Positions 2,059-19,691 of a stretch of DNA of 38,361 nucleotides are shown here, in pieces. The DNA is from Chloroflexota bacterium (GTDB taxonomy: Bacteria > Chloroflexota > Dehalococcoidia > UBA2247 > RBG-13-53-26): positions 1 to 38,361 of the forward strand of contig JAPLHP010000084.1 in the NCBI GenBank assembly GCA_026389585.1, written 5' to 3'. Within the stretch, counting starts at the first letter, position 1. Each line of letters begins with the position of its first letter. Below the pieces are notes generated by a model. It ran no database searches. It was not told the DNA's origin and worked only from the letters and a program-made list of their open reading frames with translations. The position numbers and the translations under genes are program-made.

Positions 2059-2067
2059 TAGCGCGAA

Positions 2068-3612: not shown

Positions 3613-3638
3613 TTTTCGATCTCAAGGTGGATTTAACT

Positions 3639-3672
3639 TCGGCGCACTGTGGTCTAAGGCACGGTGCGCCGA
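3639..3672 (+). other. Strong stem-loop between SDR and ACS1
   Basis: An 11-bp stem with one G-U pair is formed by 3639-3649 and 3662-3672 around a 12-nt loop. No T-tract follows on either strand, so a plain terminator is unlikely. It could be an RNA processing or stability element that sets the ratio of SDR to ACS. Confidence 0.5.
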
Positions 3673-3782
3673 GATGCAGTTGTCTGGAGGAACTGGCCTG
3701 TTTGAGAAGGCGCTTGTCTAAGGGTCTTCTCAAGCGTGGCACAGTCTGGGATATGTATGGAGCTATGTAGAAGGAGGTCAAT

Positions 3783-5147
3783 GTGAGTGTTGCGGAAAGT
3801 GCCGAGATAAAGATACCAGCCGGAAGAGAGTATCAGTTGCCGACCGACCCTGATCATCTGTGGGATGGGTTGAGGGATATCGGGTTGGGTATAAGATGGG
3901 TAGCTGAGGTAAAAAAGGTCGACATGCAAATTGAGCTGTCGGGGCCAAAGTGGGAATACAAGAGTTACACCATCCTTGAGATCGTAGAAGAACCGGGGAA
4001 GGTCAGGAATGGCATAGTTAACCTTGTTGGCCCAGATATACATGAAGTCCCGCCTGGGAGCTCTTTCCCTATGGCATGGGACATCAAGGTCTATGGCCAG
4101 GGGATAACCCAGAGACACCGGGAATACATTGAAAGACAAATGGCCATGTCATTACATGGCATAGAGGGCTATATGGCCTTTGGCTCATTCCAGGCCCCCT
4201 GGATGCGCTTCAGCAAGGCTATCGTTGGCCGACTCACCTTTGCGAAGCTGTGCCAGGTCATACATGCCTACGTCAAGACCGTTGTCCCGCAGGTGGAGGC
4301 GATGGAGTTCCGCTGGATCATTGCATCGGAGGAAGTTGGTGGCCTCAAGCTGATTGAGCCACTCTACAGGTTGGGTATTCAGAGGCTGAAGGCGCAGGAA
4401 CTGTCGGTCTCTCTTGAAGATGGTGACGTGGATATCTTCTATGGCTGCACTATCTGCAAGTCGCTGGCCCCCAACCACGTGTGCGTCATTACACCGAGCC
4501 AGATACCGTACTGTGGCATCCTCTCCTATAATGGAGCACAGGTGACGGTGGAGCTTGATCCGGAGGGCTATATCTTCCGAATGCGCAAAGGCGAGTGCAA
4601 AAATGAAGAAAAGGGCAGCTACACCGGTGTGGATGAGGCAGTCTACGAGAGGTCTAATCATCAGATAAAGCGTGTGAATGTCTTCAGTGCCATAAAGTAT
4701 CCTACTACCAACTGCGGTTGCTTCGAAGGGGCGGCATTCTATATTCCTGAGGTAGATGGACTTGGCTTGGCTATAAGACGGTACATTGGGGTAACTCCGT
4801 TGGGCATAAAGTTCTCGCGTCTGGCTGGCATGATTTCAGGCGGCTCTCAGAACCATGGAAATAAGGGCGTATCCATGCGGTCCATGCAAAGCAAGACCTT
4901 TCTCAAGGGCGATGGGGGTTGGAGCAGGATAGTGTGGATGCCCGCCGATTTGAAGAAGGAAGTCGCGGAATACATTCCCGAAGAAATCTACGATAAGATT
5001 GCCACTCAGGAGGATACTGTTGATCCTATCGAGCTGAAGGAGTTTCTAAAGAAGAAGAAGCACCCGATAGTAGAGAAGTATTGGAAGAATGGCGAACCCC
5101 AGCCACTGAAAGTACCATTACCTGGAGCGAATTGGCCCGACGAATAG
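3783..5147 (+). CDS. cdhC: Acetyl-CoA synthase beta subunit, copy 1 (CdhC type)
   Basis: This 454 aa protein is the short, archaeal-type ACS that lacks the N-terminal CODH-docking domain of acetogen AcsB. ACS joins a methyl group from a corrinoid protein, CO and CoA to make acetyl-CoA at the Ni-Ni-[4Fe4S] A-cluster, or runs in reverse. All A-cluster ligands are visible: C222-x2-C225-x8-C234-x9-C244 hold the cubane and bridging Ni, and C311-G-C313 holds the distal Ni. The conserved APNHVC stretch is intact. The residue equivalent to the gating Phe (Phe512 in Moorella ACS) is Leu228. The GTG at 3783 is set 5 nt from an AAGGAGG site; the ATG two bases upstream is out of frame. Zinc-finger gene follows after 16 nt. 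A diverged second copy starts at 8290. Confidence 0.93.
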   Translation: MSVAESAEIKIPAGREYQLPTDPDHLWDGLRDIGLGIRWVAEVKKVDMQIELSGPKWEYKSYTILEIVEEPGKVRNGIVNLVGPDIHEVPPGSSFPMAWDIKVYGQGITQRHREYIERQMAMSLHGIEGYMAFGSFQAPWMRFSKAIVGRLTFAKLCQVIHAYVKTVVPQVEAMEFRWIIASEEVGGLKLIEPLYRLGIQRLKAQELSVSLEDGDVDIFYGCTICKSLAPNHVCVITPSQIPYCGILSYNGAQVTVELDPEGYIFRMRKGECKNEEKGSYTGVDEAVYERSNHQIKRVNVFSAIKYPTTNCGCFEGAAFYIPEVDGLGLAIRRYIGVTPLGIKFSRLAGMISGGSQNHGNKGVSMRSMQSKTFLKGDGGWSRIVWMPADLKKEVAEYIPEEIYDKIATQEDTVDPIELKEFLKKKKHPIVEKYWKNGEPQPLKVPLPGANWPDE

Positions 5148-5163
5148 CCTTTGGAGGTGGACT

Positions 5164-5379
5164 ATGGGAGAGAAGACCTGCGGTGTTTGTCAGAAGAAGG
5201 TAGCGGAGTTTGCATGTAGTGTGTGTGGCGCACCTCTGTGTGCAGAGTGTGTTCGAGAGGTAGCCATAGAAAACCCTGGTCAGAGAGTTCTGGGTGTATT
5301 AACCAGCCCTTTGAAGTCCGGAATGAAGAAGCAAAAAGTATGTGAGAAATGCATGAAGGAAGTGGACTTCGTTGAGTAG
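5164..5379 (+). CDS. Small zinc-finger protein, ACS-associated, copy 1
   Basis: This 71 aa protein carries eight cysteines in a treble-clef or B-box-like pattern: C-x2-C, then C-x2-C, C-x2-C and a final C-x2-C near the C terminus, around a PGQRVLGVLTSPLKSGMKK stretch rich in basic residues. It likely binds two zinc ions or an Fe-S centre; the Cys pairs fit either. Its position between ACS and the CODH-like gene is repeated exactly in the second module, which argues that it acts with them, for example as an assembly factor, a small structural subunit or a metal-handling adaptor. I know of no counterpart in the classical archaeal ACDS or acetogen operons. Function not assigned. Confidence 0.85.
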   Translation: MGEKTCGVCQKKVAEFACSVCGAPLCAECVREVAIENPGQRVLGVLTSPLKSGMKKQKVCEKCMKEVDFVE

Positions 5380-5655
5380 AGTAGCTCCTTCTTGCTGTTG
5401 TTTTAGTGACCCTGTAATTCACAACAAGTCACTAGATTGCCGGGAAGCTTATTTGCCGGTGTATTTACTTTCTCAAGGTTCTTAAAGACGAAATTCAGTG
5501 GTATTTTAAATACGACATTGAAGAATATCTCGGCGCACTCTGCAGTGAATATCGGGAATATCTGCCAGGTGAATAGAGGATACGTGTGTTCTGAATCGGT
5601 CATCAATTGTTTGTTCTGCTGACTCAATTAAGCGATATCTGGGAGGGAGAAAGCT
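5380..5655 (+). promoter_or_regulatory. AT-richer gap inside module 1, possible regulatory region
   Basis: The corresponding gap in module 2 is only 41 nt, so some 235 nt are extra here. It contains the inverted repeat TAGTGAC / GTCACTA (from about 5405), and three copies of GAATATC at 5523, 5547 and 5556. A weak promoter-like pair (TTAAAG, 17 bp, TTTAAA) lies in the middle. No open reading frame in it looks real. An internal promoter or a decayed sequence are both possible. Confidence 0.3.
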
Positions 5656-8163
5656 GTGAAAGATAAGAGAATTGCTCATGTCGGATCTCTGGAGGTCGAT
5701 ATCAGCACAGTCGTGCGTGACCCGCGCGGTCATGAAGACGAAATTGTCGAGATAATGGAGAACGACTTTGTTGAGGGCCGCCATAGTAATTTTGGAGGGC
5801 GGATAACTCTGCTGCCCGATGCAGCAGACATAGCGGAACTGGATTATGCTCTGCTGAACAGGTATCCACCGTTATACACTCAGCCCAAGGGAGTTTGCAC
5901 TGACTGTGGCCTGGGCCCCTGCAACTTGAAAGAGGATCAGGGAAAGTGCGGACTGGATATGGACGCTTTCCAGGGCAGGTTAAGCTTGCGCAAAGCATGC
6001 CGGGGTTGTATGACTCAACTAGTGGCCAGCCGACAATTGCTGAACTATGCTCTCAAACGCTGGCCAGAGGATACGCCTGTCAGCATGGGTGAGATTCTCG
6101 GTATCTCGGATCATGCTCCTGCCATAAGCGTATTATCCGGGATACACGTAAAGACTTTAGGGGATCTTAACAGAGCGCTTTCTTATGGAGAGGAACAGCT
6201 GGCCAAGCTCTTTCAGGCGAGTTATTCGGGCACTGGAACTGCGGTGAATTTTGAAAGCATGGTGCTGCATGCCGGGTCTGTTTTGCTCCTCACCATGGGT
6301 GTGGCTGAGATGCTGAAGATCTCCTGCTATGGCTTTATCAGTGCTGCCAATCAGCCACTGGATGGGATAGAACAGTTTCCTCCTGCTACTTTAAGTGGTG
6401 GATGGGCATCCATGGAGAGTGGAAAGCCTGTTATAGCCTTTGTTGGGGATGACTTCCTGCCGGCATGGTGTGCCATCGATCATATGAAGCAGAACGGTGT
6501 GACGGAAAAAATTGAGATATGCGGCATGGGTTCAGCCGGTGATGACATAGTGAGATTCTACGATAGGTGCCGGATCGTGGCCCCGATGGTGAGGGCGCCA
6601 AAGGCGATCAGGAATGGCCTGTTTGATGTGGTTGTAGTCAGTCCAGGCTGTATTCCCCTGGACATTCTATCCCAGGCGGAGCGTGTTGATAGCAAGGTTA
6701 TATGGGTTGGGCACAATGGAATCAGCAATCTAGTGGATAGCACGGATGAGCCATCAGACAAGATAGTAGAGGCCTTACTTCATGGAGAAAAGGCAGTCTG
6801 GATCAGGGATGTAGAGAAGGCTGGTGAGGTGGCGGTGAAGTTGGCACAGAAGGTAAAGAGAAGCGGTAATTACATTATCTCTGACGATGAAGCAATGAAG
6901 CAGGCAAAGGGCCACAAGCAGGATTGTGATATTTGTTCCAGTGTCTGTCCTAATGGGTTGCCTGTGTCCAGGGCAGTCAGAGAATTGAGTAATGGTGACT
7001 GGAAGGGTTTCTTCGAGGTGGAGAAGGGATGCAATTTCTGCGGCAAATGTGATGAGGCCTGCCCCAGCAAGGTTAAACTGCGCGATGTCATTGTAGCTGC
7101 CGAAAGAAAGCAGGCCGGCACCGATAAATTCACAATGAGGCCAGGCAGGGGGCCGATATCCATAACTGAGCTGCTGCAATCTGCTTTCGCAGTAGGCTGG
7201 GGCAGCATACCAGCTATGGTGACCATCTTTGGTTGCGGCGATGCTAAGAAGGAGGAGATTGCCTGGCTAGCCAGTGAGTTGCTTAACGGCGGTTGCATGG
7301 TCTTTGTGGCAGGGTGTGCCGGAGCTGAAGTGGCTCGATCTTTCAGCCAGGCGAAGAAGAAGTACCTCTTTCAAGAATATGCTGGCACTTGTGCCTCGAG
7401 AAATATTGTGAATTGCGGCAGTTGCTCCGCTATTTGCCATGCTGTTCCGATGTATCTCATGCTGCGGCCTTCTGGTGGCATTCCTCTGTTTGGCAATATA
7501 CCGCCGCTGGGAGATTCCATCAGTCTTGGTGGTGCTCAGTCTGTGATCATGTGGGGGGCATTGCCGGACAGGATGTATGCGGTGGCGGCTGCCTGGGCCC
7601 GGCTTGGATCAACGGTCATTGTAGGGCCTGCTTCATCCTCAGGATGGAACCGCTACCTGGTTGGTGATAGATATGATCGCAGCAAGTGGTGGGTCTATCA
7701 TGGTGAGACGGGTAAGAGGCGTGAGGTTGAACCAGTAAAGGAACACTGCATTGTGCCCGTGGAAACTAAAGAGGAAGCGTTGACTATGCTGGCAAGGTCT
7801 GTGTTGAATGTAAGGGACTACAGAGAGAGCCGGGCTACTCACCTGGAGGTGATGATTGACTACTTTGAGCGCTTCTATCGGCAGCTGCCGGAGGATTGGC
7901 CTCTCTTTGTGAGGTCGGATTTCGAACTGCCGCCGAGATACAGACGACGTATGGTCAATCTCCTGGAATCCGAGTATGGATGGGAGACTGAAGGTGTGAA
8001 GGTTAAGAGGGCAAAGAATAGAGATGGCAAGCTAATGACCATGTCTGAGTTCGCAGCTACCTATGGGATGGAGCAAGGGATATATACCACAAGGCTTCGC
8101 ACCCAGTTACCCCTGCGTCTCAGGGGTGTGGCTGATGAAGGCAAGTCTAAAAATCGGCCGTAA
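5656..8163 (+). CDS. CdhA/CODH-like Fe-S protein with altered C-cluster, copy 1
   Basis: This 835 aa protein is related to the alpha subunit of archaeal CO dehydrogenase (CdhA, about 800 aa). B-cluster cysteines C81, C84, C89 and C98 are intact. A ferredoxin-like insert holds C424, C427, C431 (with H420 where copy 2 has Cys) and C459, C462, C465, C469. For the C-cluster, the cubane cysteines (C332, C527, C554) and the Ni ligand Cys (C590, GSC) are present. The pendant-iron His (GHN in CODH) is GDD at 264-266, and the Cys of the GxCC motif is replaced by GS at 292-293. Proton-relay histidines after C118 read Q121, A124, Q127, and the catalytic Lys is R639. Normal CO/CO2 conversion is therefore doubtful. 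The GTG at 5656 follows GGGAGGGAGA. Mapping of ligands is from memory of the family. Confidence 0.88.
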   Translation: MKDKRIAHVGSLEVDISTVVRDPRGHEDEIVEIMENDFVEGRHSNFGGRITLLPDAADIAELDYALLNRYPPLYTQPKGVCTDCGLGPCNLKEDQGKCGLDMDAFQGRLSLRKACRGCMTQLVASRQLLNYALKRWPEDTPVSMGEILGISDHAPAISVLSGIHVKTLGDLNRALSYGEEQLAKLFQASYSGTGTAVNFESMVLHAGSVLLLTMGVAEMLKISCYGFISAANQPLDGIEQFPPATLSGGWASMESGKPVIAFVGDDFLPAWCAIDHMKQNGVTEKIEICGMGSAGDDIVRFYDRCRIVAPMVRAPKAIRNGLFDVVVVSPGCIPLDILSQAERVDSKVIWVGHNGISNLVDSTDEPSDKIVEALLHGEKAVWIRDVEKAGEVAVKLAQKVKRSGNYIISDDEAMKQAKGHKQDCDICSSVCPNGLPVSRAVRELSNGDWKGFFEVEKGCNFCGKCDEACPSKVKLRDVIVAAERKQAGTDKFTMRPGRGPISITELLQSAFAVGWGSIPAMVTIFGCGDAKKEEIAWLASELLNGGCMVFVAGCAGAEVARSFSQAKKKYLFQEYAGTCASRNIVNCGSCSAICHAVPMYLMLRPSGGIPLFGNIPPLGDSISLGGAQSVIMWGALPDRMYAVAAAWARLGSTVIVGPASSSGWNRYLVGDRYDRSKWWVYHGETGKRREVEPVKEHCIVPVETKEEALTMLARSVLNVRDYRESRATHLEVMIDYFERFYRQLPEDWPLFVRSDFELPPRYRRRMVNLLESEYGWETEGVKVKRAKNRDGKLMTMSEFAATYGMEQGIYTTRLRTQLPLRLRGVADEGKSKNRP

Positions 8164-8289
8164 GTAAATACGAACCCCCCGCCAGGTTCTGTACCCTGGC
8201 ACGATAGCACGTTGGGAATAGGGGTTTCTGAACATAGAAACCGGCTGTGTTGTGCTTGTCAATATAGGTTCCACGAAAGGGGTATACAA
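8164..8289 (+). other. Intergenic stem-loop region between the two modules
   Basis: The 126-nt gap contains a 6-bp hairpin GCCAGG (8181-8186) with CCTGGC (8195-8200), itself flanked by imperfectly complementary GAACCCCC and GGGGTTTC segments. No T-tract follows. No promoter of note was seen. It may serve transcript processing between the duplicated modules. Confidence 0.35.
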
Positions 8290-9657
8290 ATGGCTATTCC
8301 AGAGGAAGAAGCAGTATCCAAACTCCCACCGGGAAGGATATTTCAGTTGCCGACCGACCTGGATCACCTTTGGGACGGGCTGGATGACGTCGGGCTCGGT
8401 CTAAGGTGGTTGAGTGAGGTGAAGAGAGCTGACATGCACATTGAGTTGGGTGGGCCTAAGTGGGACTATAAGATGTTCTCCATCTTCTACATTGAGGAAG
8501 ATCCGGAGAAGGTCAAGGATGGCGAAGTCAAGTTGATCGGCCCGGACATTCCGGAAGTGGCACCAGGTACCTCATTACCCGGTGGGTTTACGATAAGGAT
8601 CTATGGTAAACAATTGACTCAAGCACATCAGGGCTATGTATCCAGACAGATAGGAACTGCGCTGCAAGGCATAGAAGGATTCATGCTCTTTGGAACGCCA
8701 GATGCTCTGTGGATAAGGATAAACAAAGACGTGGCTAACAGGTTGACCTTTGCCAAGATATCTCAGTTTTGCTATGCCACCGCGAGAACGCTGCTCCCTC
8801 AGGTAGATGCCATATCATTCTTCTGGGCCATAGGGGCTCCTGAAGTCGGTGGTGTTGAGATGCTAAACCCGCTGGTTACCTGGGCGAAGGAGAAGTTGAA
8901 GATCATAAGTGCTAAGGAGCTCTACGATGACGAAGACGTAGATACCTTCTACGGTTGCACGATCTGCAAATCCCTGGCGCCAAATCATGCCTGTGTCCTT
9001 ACGCCAAGCGCGCTGCCTTACTGCGGCATCATTGGCTATGATTCGGCTAGGGTAACAGCAGAAATAGACCCGGAAGGGTATGTTTTTACTATTCCTAAAG
9101 GTGAATGCTTGGATGCGGAGAAAGGGCATTACACGGGAGTCGACCAGGCCATATGGGAGAAATGCAATCATCTGGTAAAGCGTGTGAACATCTACAGCAG
9201 CATAAACTATCCGACTACCAATTGTGGGTGTTTTGAGGCAGCATCTTTCTACATACCAGATGCTGATGGTATCGGTCTGGCTATGCGGCGCTATACTAAG
9301 ATGACACCGCTCGGTGTCAAGTTTTCCACTTTGGCAGGTATGATCTCCGGTGGGGCTCAAAATCATGGGTTCAAGGGATTGTCGATTGCCGGTATGGCGA
9401 GTAAGAACTTTCTGCGAGGAGACGGCGGTTGGAACAGGGTAGTCTGGATGCCTGCGGATTTGAAGAGGGATATCGCGGATGTGATTCCAGAGGAGGTCTA
9501 TGACAAGATTGTCACCGAGGAAGAGACTATCGATCCTCTGGAGCTCAAGGAGTTGCTCCGCAAGAAAGGACATCCAATAGTAAAGATGTTCTGGAAGAAT
9601 GGCGAACCCCAGCCATTAAAGTTGCCGCTTCCCGGTGAAGACTGGCCGGATAACTAA
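8290..9657 (+). CDS. cdhC: Acetyl-CoA synthase beta subunit, copy 2 (CdhC type)
   Basis: This second 455 aa ACS aligns with copy 1 almost without gaps apart from one extra N-terminal residue. The A-cluster ligands are all kept: C223, C226, C235, C245 and the C312-G-C314 motif. The gate position is again Leu (CTICKSLAPNH). It differs from copy 1 at many surface positions and carries extra cysteines (for example C161), so it is a diverged paralogue rather than a recent duplicate. I chose ATG 8290, which follows an AAAGGGG site by 7 nt; the frame is open from 8212, but that extension (MGIGVSEHRN...) has no counterpart in copy 1. Expected role: acetyl-CoA formation or cleavage with the neighbouring Zn-finger and CODH-like proteins. 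Confidence 0.93.
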   Translation: MAIPEEEAVSKLPPGRIFQLPTDLDHLWDGLDDVGLGLRWLSEVKRADMHIELGGPKWDYKMFSIFYIEEDPEKVKDGEVKLIGPDIPEVAPGTSLPGGFTIRIYGKQLTQAHQGYVSRQIGTALQGIEGFMLFGTPDALWIRINKDVANRLTFAKISQFCYATARTLLPQVDAISFFWAIGAPEVGGVEMLNPLVTWAKEKLKIISAKELYDDEDVDTFYGCTICKSLAPNHACVLTPSALPYCGIIGYDSARVTAEIDPEGYVFTIPKGECLDAEKGHYTGVDQAIWEKCNHLVKRVNIYSSINYPTTNCGCFEAASFYIPDADGIGLAMRRYTKMTPLGVKFSTLAGMISGGAQNHGFKGLSIAGMASKNFLRGDGGWNRVVWMPADLKRDIADVIPEEVYDKIVTEEETIDPLELKELLRKKGHPIVKMFWKNGEPQPLKLPLPGEDWPDN

Positions 9658-9678
9658 ATTTAGATTGGGGGAATGTTT

Positions 9679-9897
9679 ATGGAAAAGATGTGTGATCTAT
9701 GCCAAAAAAGGGTAGCGCCGTGGACATGCCATGAATGTGGCATCGCTTTGTGTGACGAATGTGCCCGTGAGGTTCGCATTGATTCCACCAGACCGGGCCA
9801 GAGAATGATGGGCCGGATCACCAGCCCCATGAAGTCAGGGGTGCAGAAACTAAAGGTCTGCGAGAAGTGCTTCAAGGAAAAGGAGTTTCTCGGATAA
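9679..9897 (+). CDS. Small zinc-finger protein, ACS-associated, copy 2
   Basis: This 72 aa protein is the paralogue of the protein at 5164-5379. It keeps the eight-Cys pattern (CDLC, CHEC, CDEC, CEKC) and the PGQRMMGRITSPMKSG segment. The conserved segment between the third and fourth Cys pairs, rich in G, S and K, may be the interaction surface. The ATG at 9679 is preferred over the one at 9673 because it leaves 7 nt after the GGGGGA site and starts at the same place as copy 1. It lies 21 nt after ACS copy 2 and 41 nt before the CODH-like copy 2. Confidence 0.85.
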   Translation: MEKMCDLCQKRVAPWTCHECGIALCDECAREVRIDSTRPGQRMMGRITSPMKSGVQKLKVCEKCFKEKEFLG

Positions 9898-9938
9898 GAG
9901 GTACCCTTTTCTGGTGATGGTTGCTGAGGAGAGAAGTA

Positions 9939-12425
9939 ATGGAGAAGAAGAGGATTGCCCATGTAGGGCCTCACAAAGTTGACATAAGTGAAGTGGTGCG
10001 TGATCCCCGTGGTATTGAGGATATAGTCACGGAGATACTGGAGAAAGACTTTGTTGGGAGCCGCTATTCACAATTTGGGGCGTGGTTGAGTATCTTGCCC
10101 GACGCGGCGGATATCGGGGATTGGGATCGCACTCTGCTGGAAAGATATGTGCCGCTATATACCCAGTTTCAAGGCACGTGCATTGATTGCGAGTTAGGTA
10201 CTTGCAGTCTCAAGGCAAGCCAGGGCAAATGCGGATTAGGGATGGATTCGTTTCAAGGCAGGCTGAGTTTGCGCAAGGCCTGCCGTGGCTGTATGGGCCA
10301 GATGGTAGCTACTCGTCATTTGTTGAACTATGCATTGAAGTTATGGGATGAAAGCAAGGCTGTCAGCATGGGTGAGCTCTTGGCCATGTCAGATGCCTGT
10401 CCTCCTGTAGGCACTTTGAGCGGCATCTATGTGAAAACCCTCAAGGACTTGAACAGGGTGCTCTCATACGGAGAGGCGCAGTTGGCTAAGCTGATGTCTG
10501 CGAGCTATTCAGGCACCGGAACAGTGGCGGATTTTGAAAGCATGGTGATGCACGCTGGTTCTGTTCTGCTTCTGGCTATGGGAGTGTCTGAGATGATTAA
10601 GGTCGCTTGCTTCGGCTTTACGTCAGCCGCTAACCATAAGATTGATGAACTGGAGAATTTCCCGCCGGCCAACGTGGTTGGAGGATGGTCGTCCATACAG
10701 GAAGGAAAGCCGGTAATCGCCTTTGTCGGCGATGATTTTCTGCCGGCATGGTGTGCCATAGAGTATCTCAAGCAGAATGAATTGTTGGACAAAGTCGAGA
10801 TATGCGGTGTTGGCCCTGCAGGTGATGACGTGGTGCGCTTCTATGACAAGTGCCGCATAATTGCTCCGATGGTGAAGGCGGGCAAAGCTATCAGAAATGG
10901 CGTCTTCGATGTGGTTGTAGCTGCGAACGGATGTATTCCTTTGGATCTACTATCTGAAGCGGCAAGGGTGAAGAGCAAGTTCATATGGGTAGGAGCGCAG
11001 GGAGTTGGCGATCTGGTTGATAAGACTGATGAACCTCTGGATAAGATAGTGAGTGCCCTGGTTGATGGTGAAGAGGCAGTTTGGATTAGAGATGTTGAGA
11101 AGGCTGGCCAGGTAGCAGTCAAGGTAGTCCAGCAAGTGAAGGGAACACGGAAATTTATTCTAAATGATGAGTTGGCAGTTGAGCAGGCTAAGAAGTGTAA
11201 GGATGATTGTGATCTTTGCTCTATCGCTTGCCCCAATAGCTTGCCATTATCAAAGGCGGTCAGACTGTTACGCGGCGGTAACTGGGATGGTTTCTCAGAG
11301 GTGGAGGGAGGGTGCTATTTCTGTGGAAAGTGTGAAGAGGCTTGCCCGGCTGAAGTGAGGCTGCGGGACATAATAGTAGCGACTGAAAGGAAACAAGCGA
11401 GCAAGGACAAATTCATTATGAGAGCGGGAAGAGGTCCTCTCCCCCTCACTGAGATACTGCAGTCGGCTTTTTCCATGGTCTGGGGTAATGCTCCCGGTAT
11501 CGTGGTGATAGCGGGTTGTGGTGATGCTCACCGCGATGATATCGGATGGCTGGCTCAAGAATTAACCAGACGAAACTGCATTGTCTTCGTGGCTGGATGT
11601 GCTGGTGCTGAGATTGCCCGCAACCACAACGAAAGGAAGGGCAAGTATATTTTTGAGCAGTACCTGGCTTCTATTGAGCCACGATCTCTCATCAACTGCG
11701 GTGGCTGCACCGCAGTTGCCCTGGCGAATAACATGTATATGTACTCGCGTGCTGCCGGAGGCATTCCTCTCTATGGGGGCATACCAGAGGTAGGCGAAGG
11801 GTCACTTTATTCTACCTTCACGTTGCTTGTATGGGGTGCTCTGCCTGACAGGATGTATGCAGCAGCAGCAGCATATGCCCGTCTTGGGATAAGGGTTGTA
11901 GTGGGTCCGGCTTCAGGTTGGACTTGGGGTCGCTATTTGCCTGGCAATAGGTATGATCGGAGCAAATGGTGGGTCTATCATGGAGACAATGGTAGTAAGA
12001 GAGAAACCGAACCTATTCCGGAGCATTTTATTATCCCCGTGGAAACCAAAGAGGAAGCGCTGACCATGATGCCCCACACTTTCTTCAGTACATCTGAGAT
12101 GAGGGAGGGTCGGGCTGCTCGTCTTGACCTGCTTATTGAGTTGTATCGGCTGTTCTATGGCCAACTTCCCGATGATTGGAACTTGTTGGTGAGGTCCTAT
12201 TTGGATATCCCGACGAGACACAGGATCAGATTGGTTAAGCTGCTTCGGGATGAATATGGTTGGGAAGGCGATGGATTGAAGATTACCAAGGCCAGGAATC
12301 GTGATGGGAAACTGTTAACCCTGTCGGAATTCAATACCAGCTACGGTATGGAGCTGGGAAGATACCACTGCAGACTGAAGAGGCTGTTGCCAAAGAGTGT
12401 GAAAGATAGAGAAAAGGGCAGTTAG
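9939..12425 (+). CDS. CdhA/CODH-like Fe-S protein with altered C-cluster, copy 2
   Basis: This 828 aa paralogue of the protein at 5656-8163 aligns with it without gaps for over 600 residues (31 of the first 50 residues identical by my count). B-cluster C81, C84, C89, C98 and both ferredoxin-type clusters (C420, C424, C427, C431; C459, C462, C465, C469) are complete. C-cluster cubane and Ni cysteines are C332, C527, C554 and C590, the last in a GGC rather than GSC context. As in copy 1, the pendant-iron His is replaced (GDD 264-266) and its Cys partner is lost (GP at 292-293); the catalytic Lys is R638. Of three relay histidines only H127 remains. The ATG at 9939 matches the start of copy 1 and follows GAGGAG. 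Its stop overlaps the stop of the convergent gene. Confidence 0.88.
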   Translation: MEKKRIAHVGPHKVDISEVVRDPRGIEDIVTEILEKDFVGSRYSQFGAWLSILPDAADIGDWDRTLLERYVPLYTQFQGTCIDCELGTCSLKASQGKCGLGMDSFQGRLSLRKACRGCMGQMVATRHLLNYALKLWDESKAVSMGELLAMSDACPPVGTLSGIYVKTLKDLNRVLSYGEAQLAKLMSASYSGTGTVADFESMVMHAGSVLLLAMGVSEMIKVACFGFTSAANHKIDELENFPPANVVGGWSSIQEGKPVIAFVGDDFLPAWCAIEYLKQNELLDKVEICGVGPAGDDVVRFYDKCRIIAPMVKAGKAIRNGVFDVVVAANGCIPLDLLSEAARVKSKFIWVGAQGVGDLVDKTDEPLDKIVSALVDGEEAVWIRDVEKAGQVAVKVVQQVKGTRKFILNDELAVEQAKKCKDDCDLCSIACPNSLPLSKAVRLLRGGNWDGFSEVEGGCYFCGKCEEACPAEVRLRDIIVATERKQASKDKFIMRAGRGPLPLTEILQSAFSMVWGNAPGIVVIAGCGDAHRDDIGWLAQELTRRNCIVFVAGCAGAEIARNHNERKGKYIFEQYLASIEPRSLINCGGCTAVALANNMYMYSRAAGGIPLYGGIPEVGEGSLYSTFTLLVWGALPDRMYAAAAAYARLGIRVVVGPASGWTWGRYLPGNRYDRSKWWVYHGDNGSKRETEPIPEHFIIPVETKEEALTMMPHTFFSTSEMREGRAARLDLLIELYRLFYGQLPDDWNLLVRSYLDIPTRHRIRLVKLLRDEYGWEGDGLKITKARNRDGKLLTLSEFNTSYGMELGRYHCRLKRLLPKSVKDREKGS

Positions 12426-12919
12426 TCTTCCTCGTCCTCAGTTTTCTCTGATTTTACGAGGTCAAGTGCGCTGAAGGGGCATTTTTCAGGACATAGGTTA
12501 CAGATATCAAGGCCCGGTACTGCGCGTTTACAGCTTGACCATTCTACTACGTTAAGATTGCCGTCTATTACCTTAATGACTGGTGGTACGGGAGCGCGCT
12601 GAGAGAGCCTGCCGCCGGAAGTGATAGTGGTAAGTGCTCTATTGCAGACGGCGACGCAATCACCGCAACCGGTGCATCTCGACCTATCAATGACGTGATC
12701 TGTCCCTTTGATGCGCTCTCCTTCCCCCAACATCTCCTTCAGCATATTGTATGAATCACGGAATTCTTCCTTGAGAAGGAGAGGGCAGTCAGTCGGCTTC
12801 TTATTCCTGCTTATGAGGTCGAAGGCAAAGGCATAACACGTGGGAGAACCACAGAGCTTACAATTGGTACGTGGCAATAGCCTGTATATCTGGAGCGGTT
12901 GAAGATCTTTCTTAGGCAA
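12422..12919 (-). CDS. Three-cluster Fe-S protein with CdhE/AcsC-type N-terminal domain
   Basis: This 165 aa protein has twelve cysteines in three groups. The first (C20-x2-C23-x4-C28-x16-C45) matches the 4Fe-4S domain found at the N terminus of the corrinoid protein large subunit AcsC/CdhE (NCKLCGSPTCYAFAF). The second is a classical ferredoxin motif (C82, C85, C88, C92), and the third is C130, C140, C143, C147. It is likely an electron carrier between the FwdB/D-like pair and another redox protein. The TTG start overlaps the end of the fwdD-like gene and is 4 nt from AGGAGG. Its stop TAA overlaps the stop of the convergent CODH-like gene. A full corrinoid protein or CdhD gene is not in the window. 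Confidence 0.85.
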   Translation of the reverse strand: MPKKDLQPLQIYRLLPRTNCKLCGSPTCYAFAFDLISRNKKPTDCPLLLKEEFRDSYNMLKEMLGEGERIKGTDHVIDRSRCTGCGDCVAVCNRALTTITSGGRLSQRAPVPPVIKVIDGNLNVVEWSSCKRAVPGLDICNLCPEKCPFSALDLVKSEKTEDEED

Positions 12920-13313
12920 CTTTCCTCCTGACCAGGAGGTCTGAGGTCGGGGTAATATTCTTTTCGGTCGGCATGGCTGTCACATCTATCATCTTAAGGT
13001 TTGGCAGTTGCGATACCGATGGATCGTAGCTTCCCAGGTAGTTAGAATATAGGCTGGACGGCATATGGCCTATGCCTTCTTCGATAGCGGTTTCTGATTT
13101 TACTGTCACCACCACGGAGCCTGATTTGCCTTTGAGCTCGATAGGGGCGCCATTCTTAAGCCCCAGCTTTTTCAGATCAGTCGCGGATAGGTGCACCACG
13201 GCAGACTTGGTCTGATATTCATCGCCCAATCCATCTCTCTGCCTGGCAATCGCTTGGTGGATGTCGTCATAGGTCACGATGGTCAGACTAATACCTTGGT
13301 TAGATGAATCCAT
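12912..13313 (-). CDS. fwdD: Formylmethanofuran dehydrogenase subunit D-like (molybdopterin-binding)
   Basis: This protein of 133 aa resembles FwdD/FmdD, the domain that completes the molybdopterin-guanine-dinucleotide pocket of formylmethanofuran dehydrogenase. It has the double-psi beta-barrel pattern: AVVHLSATDLKKLGLKNG, followed by PIELKGKSGSVVVTVK and an EGIGHMPSSLYSN segment. The ATG at 13313 overlaps the stop of the fwdB-like gene (TGATG) and follows GGGAG, so expression is coupled; a TTG directly upstream (13316) is the alternative. Presence of this domain implies that the pair still binds a pterin cofactor, in contrast to the degenerate FhcB of methylotrophs, which lacks a D partner. 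Confidence 0.82.
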   Translation of the reverse strand: MDSSNQGISLTIVTYDDIHQAIARQRDGLGDEYQTKSAVVHLSATDLKKLGLKNGAPIELKGKSGSVVVTVKSETAIEEGIGHMPSSLYSNYLGSYDPSVSQLPNLKMIDVTAMPTEKNITPTSDLLVRRKVA

Positions 13314-14536
13314 CAAATGCTCCCTGCCAGTTGTTTCAGGACTTCTTCCTCAGTAGGATTATCTATCTTCTTTGGGCCGGCTAATGCTACTTCATCCCCA
13401 TCCATTCTTATCATTGAGCCGCCGTATTCTACACCGGGCAGTGCTGTTGGTATGACCACATCAGCGGAGATCGTGGTGGGTGTACGGAAGTGATCCAGAC
13501 AGATGACGTTTATGCCCTGCAGATTCTTTATTATGGACTGAGGCAGGGCTGAAAACGGATCTGAACCCACTATTAGCACACATTCGGGGACACGGTTTCT
13601 TATTTGTTCCAATAAGGAGAACTCACTTCCGTGAGAAATGCCGCCGGCGAAGCTTATGCTATTAACATATCCCGTCTGTTTGTAAAGCGATTGATGGAAT
13701 CCTCTCATGTTGGCTGCTGCTATCATGGGAATTACAGCAATCCTAGTCGACTGACTGAATGTATGTGCCATCTCGCTGAATGAGATGAGATCATTGTCAA
13801 GAGAGTAGATCAGGCCGAGACCGCAGAAGATCGCGCAAAAGCGAGACTTTACCACCATCTCTCTGAATTTTCTGGCTTCATCATGTCCATCCTGTCCCTC
13901 ATCGAGTATGGCATTGATGAATTCCTTATCTTGTCCAGGCCTGATTCTGAAGGACGGCTTACACATTGCGCTCAACTCCGTCTGTCTAACCTCGACGCAG
14001 CTTAGTGTTACCTTGGGAAACCATCCGGCGGGATTGTAATCAGCATAAGCATAGTAAGTGTACTTCGAAAGGTGCCTCGGGTGGGTGTGGGGAGGATTGG
14101 CACCCCAGTAGATTAGCAGGTCTGCCTTATCTTTTACTTCGGAGAGAGAGCATGTTGGCAGATCCTCGGTAAGGATTTTATGCATCATGGCACCGTATGA
14201 AAAGGATGAGGCGTCATCGATCGTTCCACCAAGCCTTTTTGCCAGCTCGATGGCAACCGCCTGTGATTCTAAAGTCGAATTATCAAGACCAAAGACGAGG
14301 AGATTCTTTGCCTTGGAAAAGAGGTGCACTGCCTCTTGAATGGCTTCTCCCAAAGAGCGCCTTTGGCCTCTAATGAGGGCTTCTGCCCGACGCTGTGGAT
14401 CAAAGCTGGAACGAAGATAGGCCGCCCCCTTGGCACAGGCGTTCTCGATACGGCCCAGATTGGCACCGTCGATCTCAACCCGGATATCGTCGCATAGACA
14501 ACCGCATGCGGTGCAGACCAAGCTCTGAGAGCTCAA
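13313..14536 (-). CDS. fwdB: Formylmethanofuran dehydrogenase subunit B-like, metal-ligand Cys replaced
   Basis: This 407 aa protein resembles FwdB/FmdB, the molybdopterin subunit that reduces CO2 to formate in methanogens. The N-terminal 4Fe-4S site is intact (C8, C11, C15, C34; CTACGCLCDDI), and the WGANPPHTHPRH stretch is a family signature. The tungsten/molybdenum ligand Cys118 and His119 of methanogen FwdB fall on S113-Y114 here (DDASSFSYG), so the metal would have no Cys ligand. FwdA, FwdC and Ftr are absent nearby. The TTG start is preceded by GAGG and the next gene overlaps. Role is open: a formate- or formyl-related redox step, or a Fe-S/pterin scaffold. The ligand mapping is from memory. 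Confidence 0.82.
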   Translation of the reverse strand: MSSQSLVCTACGCLCDDIRVEIDGANLGRIENACAKGAAYLRSSFDPQRRAEALIRGQRRSLGEAIQEAVHLFSKAKNLLVFGLDNSTLESQAVAIELAKRLGGTIDDASSFSYGAMMHKILTEDLPTCSLSEVKDKADLLIYWGANPPHTHPRHLSKYTYYAYADYNPAGWFPKVTLSCVEVRQTELSAMCKPSFRIRPGQDKEFINAILDEGQDGHDEARKFREMVVKSRFCAIFCGLGLIYSLDNDLISFSEMAHTFSQSTRIAVIPMIAAANMRGFHQSLYKQTGYVNSISFAGGISHGSEFSLLEQIRNRVPECVLIVGSDPFSALPQSIIKNLQGINVICLDHFRTPTTISADVVIPTALPGVEYGGSMIRMDGDEVALAGPKKIDNPTEEEVLKQLAGSI

Positions 14537-14653: not shown

Positions 14654-16864
14654 TTATGAATACGAAGTGCGAGCTACTGCTGCCTCTTCGACCAGGGTGG
14701 CGGGCAGTTCCTCAGGTCCGACGAGGTAGATTCTCCCCTTCCCTACTTTAGCAATCCTTCTCATCAACTCTGGATCGGCGGATCGCTGGTTGATACAGAC
14801 GCAGGAAATTGTAATACCTCGGCGAGCTACCCTGGCGGCTTGCCTGAGGGCGTACTTCTGTGGGGATGGATGGGGTGCTGTTGCATCGCCATCAGATATG
14901 AGGATAATATGCTGTTTTGCTCTTCCCTTGGGGTGATGTTCCAGCAATTCACAGGCCTTCATCAAACCGTAGCCGATGTTGGTAAAAGCGTTCTCATGTA
15001 GCTCGAGTTCAATTACCCGGCGAGTCACTCTGTGAGGGCTGGCGGTTAGATTGACGACAATATCAGCCAGGTTGGAGAATGAGACCACTGCCACCCTGTC
15101 TTTATAGGCAGTCGCGGCCAGAGAAAGAGCCATCGCGCTTTGCTTGGCGAACCAAAATTTCTCGATCTGCAACATAGTGCCAGAGACATCGATCACCAAG
15201 ACAATATCCATTCTAGTACGGATGTCTTTGATATTGACGATAATATCCTCTCTGGTGATGTATTGTCTTCGGTGGCGGATTGCCTCTCTCATGGTATTTC
15301 TGAAGGATATGTCGCGGTATTTGTCCCCGAAGCGATAGTGGCGCATCCCCACCACTCTGCCCTCGCCCAGGCTCAACTTCTTACCCGAGCTGTGCTTCCC
15401 ATATCCATATAGATAAGCTCCCTCGTCCAACCGCGGTGTCAACTTCTCCAATAGCATGTTAATGCCACGCTGGCTGAGCATCCAGCCGCTGCTGGTGCGT
15501 TCCAGGATATCTTCCTTCTCCAGAAATTCAAGGGTTTTGGCCAGCGCTTGCTGTTCTATAATCTTGGCTATTATTTCCTTCTCTTTTCTGTATTCTTCAA
15601 CTTCCTTAAGCAACTCATCATCGAGATTATCGGCTTTGTATCGTTCCGGGTAGAGCTCTGGCAAGCGACAGGCAATCTCTCTGTATAGCTGGGCCAGCTT
15701 GGAGTCAGGGAATCGTTTGATTCTCCTTAGCAGTAGATCAAAGGAGCCATATTTCAGAGGTTTCCTGAACTTATCTTCCCGGACGATCTCCTCGATCAGG
15801 GCCAGAACATCATCTTTGGTCAGGGTAGCCAGCTGTTCCCTGGCTTCATGTTTGCCGGTTACCTTCTCGACAACTTCCTCAACAATTCGCTCTCTCTTCC
15901 CGGGCAGATCGACCTCCGGGGCCAGTTTAAGGCGGTGGGGCAGCGAGACTGCTGCTGCGACAGAAAGTCTTCTATCGGCGTCCTCGTATTCCTCCAATTC
16001 AGGGAAGTGGGATAGAAGCTCAGCATTTCTAATCATGCCGCGCGTTCCTACCCCCCTTTCTACCTCGCTGTGTCTTCTTGTCTCGTTGACTATGCGAATT
16101 GCCTGCTCAAGAACTGGCTCGGCTAAGGTTTCTATATCACGGCCGATGTGGGTAAGAACAATCCTCTTTTGCTTATCAAGATCGTCAACGTAGTCAAGGT
16201 GGATAACATCAAAGTTGTCTAGCAAGTCCAGTGGTAATGACTTTAGTGCTCCCTCTCCGCCAGTGGCTACTACCAGGGTATCCAGTTTGATCTTTTGTTC
16301 CAACACGCCAATGGTTATTGTTCCATCTTGGAGCGCATACATAACTGCATTGAGCACTCGCTCAGGGATTCTATCGATGAAATCAATCAGCAATATGCCT
16401 CGATTAGCCCGCAACAGTTTTCCGGGCAGGAAAGCACGAGGAGAGCAAATACCTTCCTTGAAGGCTATTTCCGGATCAAGGTCTCCGATCAGATCTTCAA
16501 CCGTTAACCCTCCGCTTCCTTGTATCTTCACCAATCTTCTAGCCGCAGGGAGGATGGTGCTGTGAAGTATTTCACCTCGCTTTTTCCTGTCTATACACCA
16601 GGGGCAGGGATCATTTTGGGGAAAACAATGTAGGGGGCAGCCCTCTACTACCTCAATATCATTCAGAATAACAGATAGACTGTTGGCTAAGCTTGTTTTA
16701 CCACTTCCGGGGGGGCCAAGAATAAGCAGGTGGTGTGCACTGCAGAGGCTGCTTAACAAGGCCAGTTTCTTCGCATCTTCTATTTGAAGATCATCAAAGA
16801 CTGACCGGCTAAACTGGTCAGTGCCTATTCTGTCTAAGGTGGTAAGGATTTCTTCCAGAAGCAA
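14654..16864 (-). CDS. MoxR-type AAA protein fused to VWA domain, degenerate ATPase centre
   Basis: This 736 aa protein joins an N-terminal AAA+ domain of the MoxR/Mg-chelatase-I type to a C-terminal von Willebrand A domain. Walker A (GPPGSGKT, 50-57) and a zinc-binding insertion (C76, C80, C87, C90) are intact. The catalytic Glu of Walker B is Phe (D161-F162), the sensor-1 Asn is gone (TGGEG, 201-205) and the LLDRFD arginine is Asn (LLDNFD, 214-219). The VWA MIDAS is complete as D559-x-S561-x-T563 with a later ISDGDATA loop. MoxR-VWA pairs insert metals or remodel metalloenzymes (CoxD/E, Mg-chelatase I/D, NorQ/D). The TTG start is weakly supported. It lies between CooC and the FwdB-like gene. 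Confidence 0.88.
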   Translation of the reverse strand: MLLEEILTTLDRIGTDQFSRSVFDDLQIEDAKKLALLSSLCSAHHLLILGPPGSGKTSLANSLSVILNDIEVVEGCPLHCFPQNDPCPWCIDRKKRGEILHSTILPAARRLVKIQGSGGLTVEDLIGDLDPEIAFKEGICSPRAFLPGKLLRANRGILLIDFIDRIPERVLNAVMYALQDGTITIGVLEQKIKLDTLVVATGGEGALKSLPLDLLDNFDVIHLDYVDDLDKQKRIVLTHIGRDIETLAEPVLEQAIRIVNETRRHSEVERGVGTRGMIRNAELLSHFPELEEYEDADRRLSVAAAVSLPHRLKLAPEVDLPGKRERIVEEVVEKVTGKHEAREQLATLTKDDVLALIEEIVREDKFRKPLKYGSFDLLLRRIKRFPDSKLAQLYREIACRLPELYPERYKADNLDDELLKEVEEYRKEKEIIAKIIEQQALAKTLEFLEKEDILERTSSGWMLSQRGINMLLEKLTPRLDEGAYLYGYGKHSSGKKLSLGEGRVVGMRHYRFGDKYRDISFRNTMREAIRHRRQYITREDIIVNIKDIRTRMDIVLVIDVSGTMLQIEKFWFAKQSAMALSLAATAYKDRVAVVSFSNLADIVVNLTASPHRVTRRVIELELHENAFTNIGYGLMKACELLEHHPKGRAKQHIILISDGDATAPHPSPQKYALRQAARVARRGITISCVCINQRSADPELMRRIAKVGKGRIYLVGPEELPATLVEEAAVARTSYS

Positions 16865-16882
16865 TTTGTATATCGTCCGACT

Positions 16883-17644
16883 TCAACTGTAGCCCAGGAT
16901 CTTCTTGCAGATTTCATCTATCGCAATGGATGCTGGAGAGTCTTTTGGGATCTCGGTCACAGGTTTGCCCTGGCCATCAAACTGTGCGACCAGCGGTTCA
17001 AAGGGAACATAGGCTGCTATCTCAAGCCCGTTTTCCTTGGCCAGTTCGTCTACGCGAGACCTGTTTTCCTCCGTCACCCTGTTGGCCACTATCAGGATGG
17101 CGCCAAACTCGATATTGAGCTCTCTTGATATCTCCACAATTCTCTTAGCAGTTTGAATGGCATTTTTTGTAGGATCAGTAACCACCAGCATGATGTCAAC
17201 ATCCCGGGTAGTGCGCCGACTAAGGTGCTCCAGCCCTGCGTGACAGTCGATTACAGTGAAATCATAACCCCTTGCTCTAGTGTCTATTACCTGTCGGACG
17301 ACGTGGTTGACGGCGCAGTAGCATCCCTCACCTTCCGAACGCCCCATTACCAGTATGTCGAATTGAGGGAACTCCTCGATAGCTTCATGGAGGGCCAGCT
17401 CCAGGTGTTCTTGTTTGGAACTTGTCACCTTGCTACGAGCTGGTGCATTGATAATTGCCTCCCGGCTCTCTCCCACGTTCTTGGTCACTGTTACACCAAG
17501 GGCCTGGGGGAGGTTGGAATCCGGGTCGGCATCAATTGCCAGTACGCTACCGTGCTCGGATAGCTTCTTTACCAGCATGCCTGACACAAAGGTCTTCCCT
17601 ACTCCGCCCTTTCCGGAGACTGCAATAGCAAGTCCTCTGCTCAT
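16883..17644 (-). CDS. cooC: CooC-type nickel-insertion ATPase for CODH/ACS
   Basis: This 253 aa P-loop ATPase of the MinD/NifH-like family has the deviant Walker A motif GKGGVGKT (11-18), the IDADPDSNLPQALG strand and loop typical of CooC/AcsF, and the metal-binding C108-x-C110 motif (GEGCYCAVNH). CooC dimers bind Ni(II) at the CxC pair and deliver it to CODH or, as AcsF, to ACS. Finding it next to ACS genes supports assembly of Ni in the A-cluster. The start ATG at 17644 follows AAGGAAAG and lies three bases after the MoxR stop, so translation is probably coupled. Confidence 0.92.
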   Translation of the reverse strand: MSRGLAIAVSGKGGVGKTFVSGMLVKKLSEHGSVLAIDADPDSNLPQALGVTVTKNVGESREAIINAPARSKVTSSKQEHLELALHEAIEEFPQFDILVMGRSEGEGCYCAVNHVVRQVIDTRARGYDFTVIDCHAGLEHLSRRTTRDVDIMLVVTDPTKNAIQTAKRIVEISRELNIEFGAILIVANRVTEENRSRVDELAKENGLEIAAYVPFEPLVAQFDGQGKPVTEIPKDSPASIAIDEICKKILGYS

Positions 17645-17646
17645 GA

Positions 17647-18681
17647 CTACTTTCCTTCCAGAACGCTATTCACCAGTTCATTGATCAGATTCAGTGGGTC
17701 ATCGTAGAACTTAGACTCAGGCGATGGCTTGATTCTACTACCAAGAGAGGAAGAGGCCATATCCCGTATATCATCTATATTTGCTTCAGATCGGTTTTCC
17801 AGCTTTGCCACAGCCTGTACCTTCTCATAAAGCGAAAGTGTAGCCCTTACACTAGCGGCTTGATCCATCTCCTTTGACCAAGGCTCTTCACGTGTAGCTC
17901 GTACCAGGGTAACCACGGCATCAAGTACTTCATCCGGCACTTTTACATTATCAATCCTGAGCCCATATCGGACTACTATCTCCTTCTCTTTTTCCAGAGA
18001 TTCAGGATAGCCCATCTTGACCACATCAAATCTGTCGAGAAGGACATCGGAAAGCTCCTCGACCCCAGCCCGTTCTCTTGGGTTCATAGTAGCTATCATC
18101 ACAAAATCAGCCGGGTAGTCTACGTCGTAAGGCCCTATCGTCGCGATGCCCTCTTCAAGAACCTCTAATAGAGCATTTTGAAGTTTCTCTGTAACCCTGT
18201 TAAGTTCATCGAAGAAAACGATCCCTCGATTGCCCTTGAGCAATTTCCCTGGCAAGAATGCCCGATAGTCCTGAGGACCATACTTGAAAGCCTGGGTTGG
18301 ATCGATATCTCCCAAAAGGTCCTCAGCAGTAAGGTCAGGAGAACCCTGCAACCTGACGAACCTTTGCTCACCAGGAATCATAGTGGACTCCAGTTTCTCA
18401 CCAGTGGAAGCTTTTGCCTTGCACTGTGGGCAGACAGGCTGTTCCGGGTGGCAATGGTAAGGGCAACCCTTCACCACCTTTATGGGAGGCAAAGCTGCTG
18501 CTATATGCTTGGCGAGAGTAGTCTTGCCAACTCCAGGCGGTCCCTCAATCAGCATGTGATGGCCAGCCAGCAATGACGCAAGTATCCTCTTCTTGGCATC
18601 ATCCTGGCCCACAATGACTGAAAGCATGTCATTCCCATCAGCCACAGATTTCAGGATCGCTTCTCTTAGTCCCTCAATCAT
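17647..18681 (-). CDS. MoxR-family AAA+ ATPase, intact, with zinc-type insertion
   Basis: This 344 aa AAA+ ATPase has a complete active centre: Walker A GPPGVGKT (residues 47-54), Walker B FFDELN, sensor-1 ATMNPRE and the LLDRFD arginine. An insertion CPYHCHPEQPVCPQC holds four cysteines in the same pattern as in the fused MoxR-VWA protein, so the two AAA domains are paralogues and may form mixed rings. I infer that this protein supplies ATP hydrolysis and the VWA fusion supplies target binding in a metallocofactor insertion step for the ACS/CODH-like complex. I chose ATG 18681 after AGGAGG; a GTG one codon upstream is the alternative. It is the first gene of the leftward operon; a weak promoter (TTGGTT, 18 bp, TATACT) lies just upstream. 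Confidence 0.9.
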   Translation of the reverse strand: MIEGLREAILKSVADGNDMLSVIVGQDDAKKRILASLLAGHHMLIEGPPGVGKTTLAKHIAAALPPIKVVKGCPYHCHPEQPVCPQCKAKASTGEKLESTMIPGEQRFVRLQGSPDLTAEDLLGDIDPTQAFKYGPQDYRAFLPGKLLKGNRGIVFFDELNRVTEKLQNALLEVLEEGIATIGPYDVDYPADFVMIATMNPRERAGVEELSDVLLDRFDVVKMGYPESLEKEKEIVVRYGLRIDNVKVPDEVLDAVVTLVRATREEPWSKEMDQAASVRATLSLYEKVQAVAKLENRSEANIDDIRDMASSSLGSRIKPSPESKFYDDPLNLINELVNSVLEGK

Positions 18682-18819
18682 CACTCCTCCTGGTTAAGAA
18701 GTATACTATACAATCTTAATCTGAACCAATCAGGAGTGATTGCTTGGTGGGGGTGGTTGCTGAGTATCAGGAGGCTTTTCTGGGTTGGTGGATGAACTGA
18801 ATATTGGTGCTTTGACGCT

Positions 18820-18848
18820 TTGACCATGTGGATAGTGATTGCTATAAT
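18820..18848 (+). promoter_or_regulatory. Sigma-70 promoter of the second unknown protein gene
   Basis: TTGACC at 18820-18825 and TATAAT at 18843-18848 are separated by 17 bp. The predicted transcription start is near 18855, which is inside the longest open frame starting at 18828, so the real start codon must lie downstream. Confidence 0.7.
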
Positions 18849-18884
18849 GGCCTCGTGGCACGAACAAATGGGGTCCCCGCTAAG

Positions 18885-19691
18885 ATGTTGACGGTAGGTG
18901 AAGTCAACAGTACTTTTGCTGAAAAGGGAGTAGATATTAAGCTGCCGTTGCCCACCCACTTTTTGGTAAAGGATCTGCAGGTTCTTGAGAGAAGGAAAGT
19001 CCCGGGTGGAGTGGGGCTACTCTTGAGGGTAGAGTTCATAAATGATAATGGGGAGGAAGTTACCGATCTGTTTCACTGTGAAGGAGGGGTAAAGGTAGAG
19101 GGTAAAAGGAAGACTGAAACAGCAGAGATTCAGCAGCCACCCCTGACAGACCTGCTGCCCCTGCGCTCGAAAGAGGAATTTGAGAGTGATGATGAGGTGA
19201 AGTCCTATTTGAAAGAAGCGATCAGTCACCTGCTGCAGGATAAGGGGTACCGACTTGGTGAGCGCAACGATGTTGATTTGTATTTTGAGCGGCAGGAGCA
19301 GGGGTTCTTTGTTAGTCTGGCAGTACGGTGTGACGAGTCACTCCTTGAAAAGGCGAAGATATTAGTAGAACTAAGGCAGAGGCATGGCGTTGATAATGAG
19401 TATGGCCTGATAGTCCCAGCCTTTCAGGATTCTCTGGGGGTTCCGCTTCTAAGTCAGGAGCGCTGGATGTTGAGAAACCAGGAGTTCCTGGCAATAAATC
19501 GGATCGGGATCTATGCTGTTGATAATTGGAATCCCAATCTGCTCTATGCTTTTACTATTCACCCTTCCCCAAGAGATCTCAAGAAATACTTCATGACTAC
19601 GGGACCTAAGTGGTCTCTGGTTCGTAGCCGCTATGTTCTGGGCAGATCTAAGAAGAAGGCGGCTGGTCTTGAGTCTCCATCGGATGGTTAG
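18885..19691 (+). CDS. Unknown protein, partner to the ACS-cluster protein (type B)
   Basis: I do not recognise this protein (268 aa from the ATG at 18885). Its last 150 or so residues resemble the protein encoded at 2068-2637, including GYRL, F-x-SLAVR, a leucine-rich helix, LIVPAFQD, and PSPRDLKKYFMTT. The N-terminal 80 residues form a basic, beta-rich segment of their own. A promoter at 18820-18848 overlaps the 5' part of the open frame, so the frame start at 18828 is excluded. GTG 18855 at the predicted transcription start would give a leaderless message, and ATG 18885 has only a weak ribosome site. It is transcribed away from the MoxR-cooC operon and towards clpC. Confidence 0.75.
   Translation: MLTVGEVNSTFAEKGVDIKLPLPTHFLVKDLQVLERRKVPGGVGLLLRVEFINDNGEEVTDLFHCEGGVKVEGKRKTETAEIQQPPLTDLLPLRSKEEFESDDEVKSYLKEAISHLLQDKGYRLGERNDVDLYFERQEQGFFVSLAVRCDESLLEKAKILVELRQRHGVDNEYGLIVPAFQDSLGVPLLSQERWMLRNQEFLAINRIGIYAVDNWNPNLLYAFTIHPSPRDLKKYFMTTGPKWSLVRSRYVLGRSKKKAAGLESPSDG

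Follow-up and report, generated by a model that had tools for sequence, protein, structure and literature searches.

An AAA+ ATPase, a CooC-type protein and an AAA+-VWA protein lacking catalytic residues accompany a divergent CODH/ACS-type complex in Chloroflexota and Desulfobacterota

Why would a bacterium keep, on either side of a CooC-type gene, one AAA+ protein with all of its catalytic motifs and a second, fused to a VWA domain, that has lost several of them? This question is raised by contig JAPLHP010000084.1 of a Chloroflexota bacterium (assembly GCA_026389585.1), where the three genes, here called I, CooC and D, lie next to genes for a complex resembling carbon monoxide dehydrogenase/acetyl-CoA synthase (CODH/ACS). 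The window, the whole stretch of 38,361 nucleotides analysed here, is one complete contig (G000:C84) of a 1.93-Mb source genome. An initial annotation had placed the I-CooC-D set at 14654-18681; the start was correct, and the end is 3 nt short of that of I at 18684. The three genes are as follows.

17647-18684, minus strand: I, a MoxR/ChlI-like AAA+ ATPase of 345 aa with intact catalytic motifs and a four-Cys insertion.
16883-17644, minus strand: CooC-type Ni-insertion P-loop ATPase with a deviant Walker A and a CxC motif (GCYC); among solved structures it matches CooC1 best (3kje, E 4.5e-21).
14654-16864, minus strand: D, 736 aa, comprising a pseudo-AAA+ domain (about 20-337), a linker and a C-terminal VWA domain with a metal-ion-dependent adhesion site (MIDAS; about 553-713), as judged from motifs, Pfam and NorQ/CbbQ fold matches.

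We propose, with a probability of about two in three, that I and D are a NorQD/Mg-chelatase-like AAA+/VWA remodelling pair which, with CooC, loads a metal, most likely nickel, into a divergent CODH/ACS-type complex of several anaerobes that are only distantly related. All evidence comes from the genomics of metagenome-assembled genomes (MAGs), and it is from genomics that we infer the client.

The initial annotation had described D as lacking the Walker B Glu, the sensor-1 Asn and the arginine of LLDRFD, all three of which its neighbour I keeps, and direct reading and alignment bore this out, as they did the Walker A of both proteins, the complete MIDAS of D and the position of CooC between the two. 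In D, the motifs read GPPGSGKT (Walker A), LLIDF (Walker B, D161-F162), ATGGEG (sensor 1) and LLDNFD (Arg-finger site), whereas those of I read GPPGVGKT, VFFDE, ATMNPRE and LLDRFD. Both proteins carry a C-x3-C-x6-C-x2-C insertion. The MIDAS of D consists of D559-x-S561-x-T563, T628 and D658, its third hydroxyl being Thr rather than Ser, and the Pfam VWA match scores 60.9 bits. Among aligned relatives (27 D rows, with L051 and L216 representing one gene, and 21 I rows), the Walker B Glu was absent from all 26 readable D rows (24 Phe, 2 Met) and the Arg finger from all 27, and the sensor-1 Asn was kept in a single row of 27, the D of G010. Retained in D were the Walker A Lys (26/26 readable rows), the Walker B Asp (26/26), the sensor-2 Arg (27/27) and the MIDAS, complete in every readable row (25 or 26). 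In contrast, every catalytic residue (Walker A, Walker B Glu, sensor-1 Asn and Arg finger) was intact in 21/21 I rows. As the pattern of loss and retention in D spans Chloroflexota, Nitrospinae, Desulfobacterota and Alkanophagales, it is old and maintained rather than the result of single-genome decay or chance. The loss of Glu and Arg finger with Walker A, Walker B Asp and sensor 2 kept fits a domain that would bind nucleotide but not hydrolyse it.

The set had been assigned to an ACS/CODH-like complex, and the linkage to ACS/CODH in relatives holds in two phyla. Among 100 Chloroflexota relatives, D or I was present in 12, of which 11, versus 0 of the other 88, also had a divergent CdhA (a match of at least 36% identity, counting fragments). 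Of 59 relatives of one Desulfobacterota genome, nine contained D; the same nine, and none of the other 50, contained a divergent CdhA (at least 37% identity). Fisher values were 8e-14 for Chloroflexota and 8e-11 for Desulfobacterota, for genomes that are related and not independent. D was not found in four Chloroflexota (31-34% identity) and four Desulfobacterota (32-33% identity) genomes with canonical CdhA only. D genomes reached from the relatives search had a divergent CdhA in 10/10 cases, seven of which recur among the nine Desulfobacterota genomes and are not independent of them. D/I tracks divergent CdhA, not canonical CdhA. The D genomes G103, G104 and G106 yielded no ACS-like relative of this type, which fragmented MAGs could hide; the divergent CdhA alpha-like subunit is therefore a more constant partner than ACS. 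Thus, the assignment to the complex stood by linkage and co-occurrence, and the partner tracked within it is divergent CdhA rather than ACS.

The genes are also linked to one another. I adjoins CooC in 21/21 I loci; 18 of these extend far enough on the contig to show D, and it follows I-CooC in 14 of them, either directly or past ACS-like genes (both hand counts from locus listings). ACS-like genes lie between CooC and D in three loci (L031, L032 and L041). CxC and the deviant Walker A were present in 20/20 CooC rows. Nickel and Fe-S insertion had both been suggested, and the CxC-bearing CooC is the single element that favours nickel over an Fe-S cluster. In the window, I, CooC, D and the genes for FwdB-like, FwdD-like and Fe-S proteins run in this order from 18684 down to 12422 on the minus strand, neighbours being separated or overlapping by no more than 117 nt, and converge with a plus-strand run from 1588 to 12425 that comprises CdhB-like, u189, a short-chain dehydrogenase/reductase and then ACS1-CdhA1-ACS2-CdhA2. 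The other features are these.

1588-2058, plus strand: CdhB (epsilon)-like subunit.
2068-2637, plus strand: u189, a conserved protein with weak similarity to the C-terminal domain of u287.
3783-5147, plus strand: ACS1 (CdhC-like), with the full A-cluster Cys ligand set.
5656-8163, plus strand: CdhA1, a divergent CODH alpha subunit without the Fe1 His/Cys and the catalytic Lys.
8212-9657, plus strand: ACS2 (CdhC-like), with the full A-cluster Cys ligand set.
9921-12425, plus strand: CdhA2, a divergent CODH alpha subunit with the residue pattern of Inoue group A-4.
12422-12919, minus strand: Fe-S protein with a CdhE-type FeS domain and ferredoxin Cys.
12912-13316, minus strand: FwdD-like molybdopterin-binding domain.
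13313-14536, minus strand: FwdB-like protein with Ser-Tyr in place of the W-ligand Cys118-His119.
18828-19691, plus strand: u287, here divergently oriented to I; its C-terminal domain models like PD-(D/E)XK proteins.

What kind of metal site would such a client offer? Aligned to a canonical row (L098) and PDB entries, the 29 divergent CdhA rows (L044 and L140 being one gene) did not have the canonical Ni-CODH set of C-cluster His, five Cys and Lys. The C-cluster His, which the canonical row has within GHN, was present in 0/29, the first C-cluster Cys in 0/28 readable rows and the catalytic Lys in 0/29, with the remaining four C-cluster Cys in 29/29. These losses are those of groups A-4 and A-6 as tabulated by Inoue et al. 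2019 (Table 2, PMC6344411): CdhA2 has D, P, C, C, C, C, Q, R, the pattern of A-4, and the copies from Desulfobacterota are similar to A-6 (N, S, ..., H, L). That study lists both groups in bacteria only; in contrast, the variants described here also occur in Alkanophagales. A 2026 marine survey, according to its accessible part, left Cys-changed sequences like these out of the Ni-CODH set on the ground that the hybrid cluster of CODH-V, which is altered at Cys295, contains no Ni (PMC13240472). The four remaining Cys of divergent CdhA could hold a [4Fe-4S] or a Ni cluster. In ACS1 and ACS2, the A-cluster Cys (CxxCx8Cx9C and CGC) are all kept, so a need for nickel is expected for ACS.

In the proposed mechanism, I would be the motor, an ATP-hydrolysing ring, and D a nucleotide-sensing adaptor that would bind without hydrolysis and whose MIDAS-bearing VWA domain would grip the client. 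With CooC as the putative nickel handler, the three would open or hold the apo form of the divergent CODH/ACS complex (A-4/A-6 CdhA, the CdhB-like subunit and often ACS) for metal placement. I and D may form mixed rings, as the initial annotation had suggested; stacked AAA+ rings, as in Mg-chelatase, fit equally.

The scheme is drawn by analogy with known systems. As described in the available text of PMC13036017, the NorQD ring twists the VWA protein and so opens the client for metal. Like NorQ/NorD and CbbQ/CbbO, the pair combines a hydrolysing AAA+ protein with a VWA/MIDAS partner, and the AAA+ part of the D model finds its best matches in NorQ and CbbQ (Z 17.6, rmsd (root mean square deviation) 3.6, 244 aligned), with NorQD chains ranking first and BchI seventh in Foldseek. 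However, here the VWA partner has a disabled AAA+ domain of its own, CooC belongs to the set and the presumed client is of the CODH/ACS type. Mg-chelatase ChlI/ChlD likewise joins an active I to a D in which a non-hydrolysing AAA+ domain is fused to VWA, and for ChlD the accessible part of PMC3789969 describes an allosteric AAA+ site of which Walker A is most needed. Whereas Synechocystis ChlD retains the Walker B Glu and Arg finger, which were mutated in that work, D lacks both, and ChlH/CobN was not found in most D genomes here. CoxD/CoxE, a BchI-like AAA+ and a VWA protein, are required for the metal site of a CO dehydrogenase as far as the available text of PMC4240915 goes; in contrast to the present set, they serve the Mo/Cu site of the aerobic enzyme, and their AAA+ and VWA parts are two distinct proteins.

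Several observations weigh against the proposed role. With the Fe1 ligands and Lys lost in the rows aligned, the cluster of divergent CdhA may be an ordinary [4Fe-4S] one, for which nickel would not be required. G002 (72% complete) has D/I, and no divergent CdhA was found in it. I-CooC has no D beside it in L211 (Alkanophagales), L030 (G010) and the second clusters L213 and L214. Searches found no I in four genomes that have D and divergent CdhA (G106, G107, G110 and G150), and the contigs of G107 and G110 are long; an obligate I-D pair is therefore not universal. In these I-less genomes, either D acts alone or with another AAA+ protein, or I was overlooked. The D model has a mean pLDDT (predicted local distance difference test score) of 62.6 and is weak outside the AAA+ part, so that the VWA finger is not judgeable from it. 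At the Desulfobacterota loci L048-L053, we observed a stand-alone D paralogue with neither I nor CooC alongside; in G106, G107 and G110, D either belongs to this type or has it as its nearest one.

Two other explanations start from the same gene set. The pair could be a general MoxR/VWA quality-control or assembly chaperone, concerned with subunit docking or with the FwdB-like or Fe-S protein, and have no direct role in metal insertion. MoxR/VWA couples act on varied clients, the operon includes FwdB-, FwdD- and Fe-S-like genes, and L213 is a second I-CooC cluster with FwdB/FwdD/FeS genes and without D. Nonetheless, a CooC with a CxC metal site stands beside I at every I locus, and we consider a role confined to chaperoning rather improbable. 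Alternatively, the pair might activate the A-cluster of the ACS-like protein, in the manner of AcsF but with a motor, and not the CdhA-like subunit. The ACS-like genes between CooC and D in three loci and the nickel need expected from the intact A-cluster Cys would agree with this, but no ACS of this type was found alongside the D and divergent CdhA of G103, G104 and G106 (G103 and G104 also with I-CooC), subject to the fragmentation of these MAGs; we consider this explanation unlikely.

The family placement of I and D bears on a third explanation. AAA_3 (Pfam) was above its cut-off for I, and the best NCBIfam profile for both I and D was the cobaltochelatase-type TIGR02442, at 117 and 120 bits versus a cut-off of 779. 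In a tree of the AAA+ domain with 49 rows, D formed one clade (100/100) and I another (98/98); the two grouped together against three MoxR and seven chelatase reference rows with support of only 90/65, the TIGR02442 and BchI rows forming a separate clade and the three MoxR rows another. The initial annotation had called I and D paralogues from their common four-Cys insertion. The insertion is present in both and the tree joins them, but four Cys also occur there in five of six TIGR02442-type reference rows (L143, L144, L145, L146 and L182; L142 has three), so we rejected the insertion as proof of paralogy. A search of plasmids with D gave one weak BchI match. A cobalt- or magnesium-chelatase pair that places metal into a tetrapyrrole, although favoured by the TIGR02442 profile and the four-Cys insertion common to that family, is highly improbable and largely ruled out by the far sub-threshold scores, the separate TIGR02442/BchI clade and the finding that CobN/ChlH (PF02514) was not found in 13/20 D genomes, including G000 and all seven same-family Chloroflexota tested.

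Is the nickel site of ACS itself always of the cysteine type? In an ACS-like gene of seven genomes, TGA-GGN-TGA replaces the codons of the Cys-Gly-Cys nickel site seen in the window, at these positions.

L041: 9150-9158.
L031: 2745-2753.
L029: 4054-4062, minus strand.
L044: 6057-6065.
L134: 4856-4864.
L137: 4178-4186.
L128: 12349-12357.

In the nine codons from +9, 48/54 synonymous comparisons were shared by four divergent TGA-type representatives, a score among the highest of 276 windows (maximum 45/50, in an overlapping window; mean 0.42); in six Cys-type genes, 42/110 were shared over the same codons. A stem of nine pairs with a GG-bearing loop, resembling a selenocysteine insertion sequence (SECIS), is predicted after TGA-GGN-TGA; it shows no covariation because the sequence hardly varies, and Rfam gave no match for it (a single row lay far under its threshold). 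A tRNA-Sec match of 74-82 bits was obtained in 6/7 TGA-type genomes, with none over the cut-off in G059 (62% complete), and equally strong matches occurred in G000, G001, G004 and G005, whose ACS has Cys. Two reviews that cover selenoproteins of prokaryotes, word-searched in their accessible portions, list the CdhE-gamma (HgcA) type alone, and neither names ACS beta (PMC13188914, PMC9312934), and a literature search returned no selenocysteine ACS among the matches listed. We tentatively suggest, at somewhat less than even odds, that a dedicated AAA+/pseudo-AAA+-VWA/CooC machine builds a non-canonical C-cluster without the Fe1 arm in A-4/A-6 complexes, in some of which ACS would hold the distal nickel by two selenocysteines.

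Other genes accompany the complex. The FwdB-like protein kept the W-ligand Cys in 1/10 rows and the neighbouring His in 0/10 (Cys118 and His119, which we take to be W-site residues of FwdB), and it is still retained in the cluster without them. u287 and u189 are conserved companions; u287 lies directly upstream of I in Desulfobacterota. Neither had a Pfam match, and the u287 model matched nothing under E 0.001 in Foldseek. The modelled C-terminal domain of u287 appears PD-(D/E)XK-like (2ph7: Z 11.2, rmsd 2.3, 112 aligned), and u189 resembles it weakly (pairwise hhalign probability 84%). At L124, L125 and L127, divergent CdhA lies beside Peripla_BP_6 runs, at L124 and L127 also with methylmalonyl-CoA-mutase-type genes, neighbours that hint at an acyl-CoA role. 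L130, L131 and L132, from the alkane-oxidising archaea Alkanophagales, carry divergent CdhA-CdhB-ACS sets; in the available text of PMC10322722, the step from alkyl-coenzyme M to acyl-CoA in alkane-oxidising archaea is called unknown.

A literature search, with word searches of PMC13056359 and PMC6344411 as far as their text was available, returned no AAA+/VWA machine tied to a Ni-CODH/ACS-type enzyme, and neither an ATPase nor a chelatase nor a von Willebrand protein is named in the main text of PMC6344411. Such machines have so far been tied to Fe (NorQD), Mo/Cu (CoxDE), Mg and Co sites. The loss of the ATPase residues of D in several phyla is a natural experiment, and I-CooC-D offers a practical entry point to the A-4/A-6 groups of CODH, which are uncharacterised.

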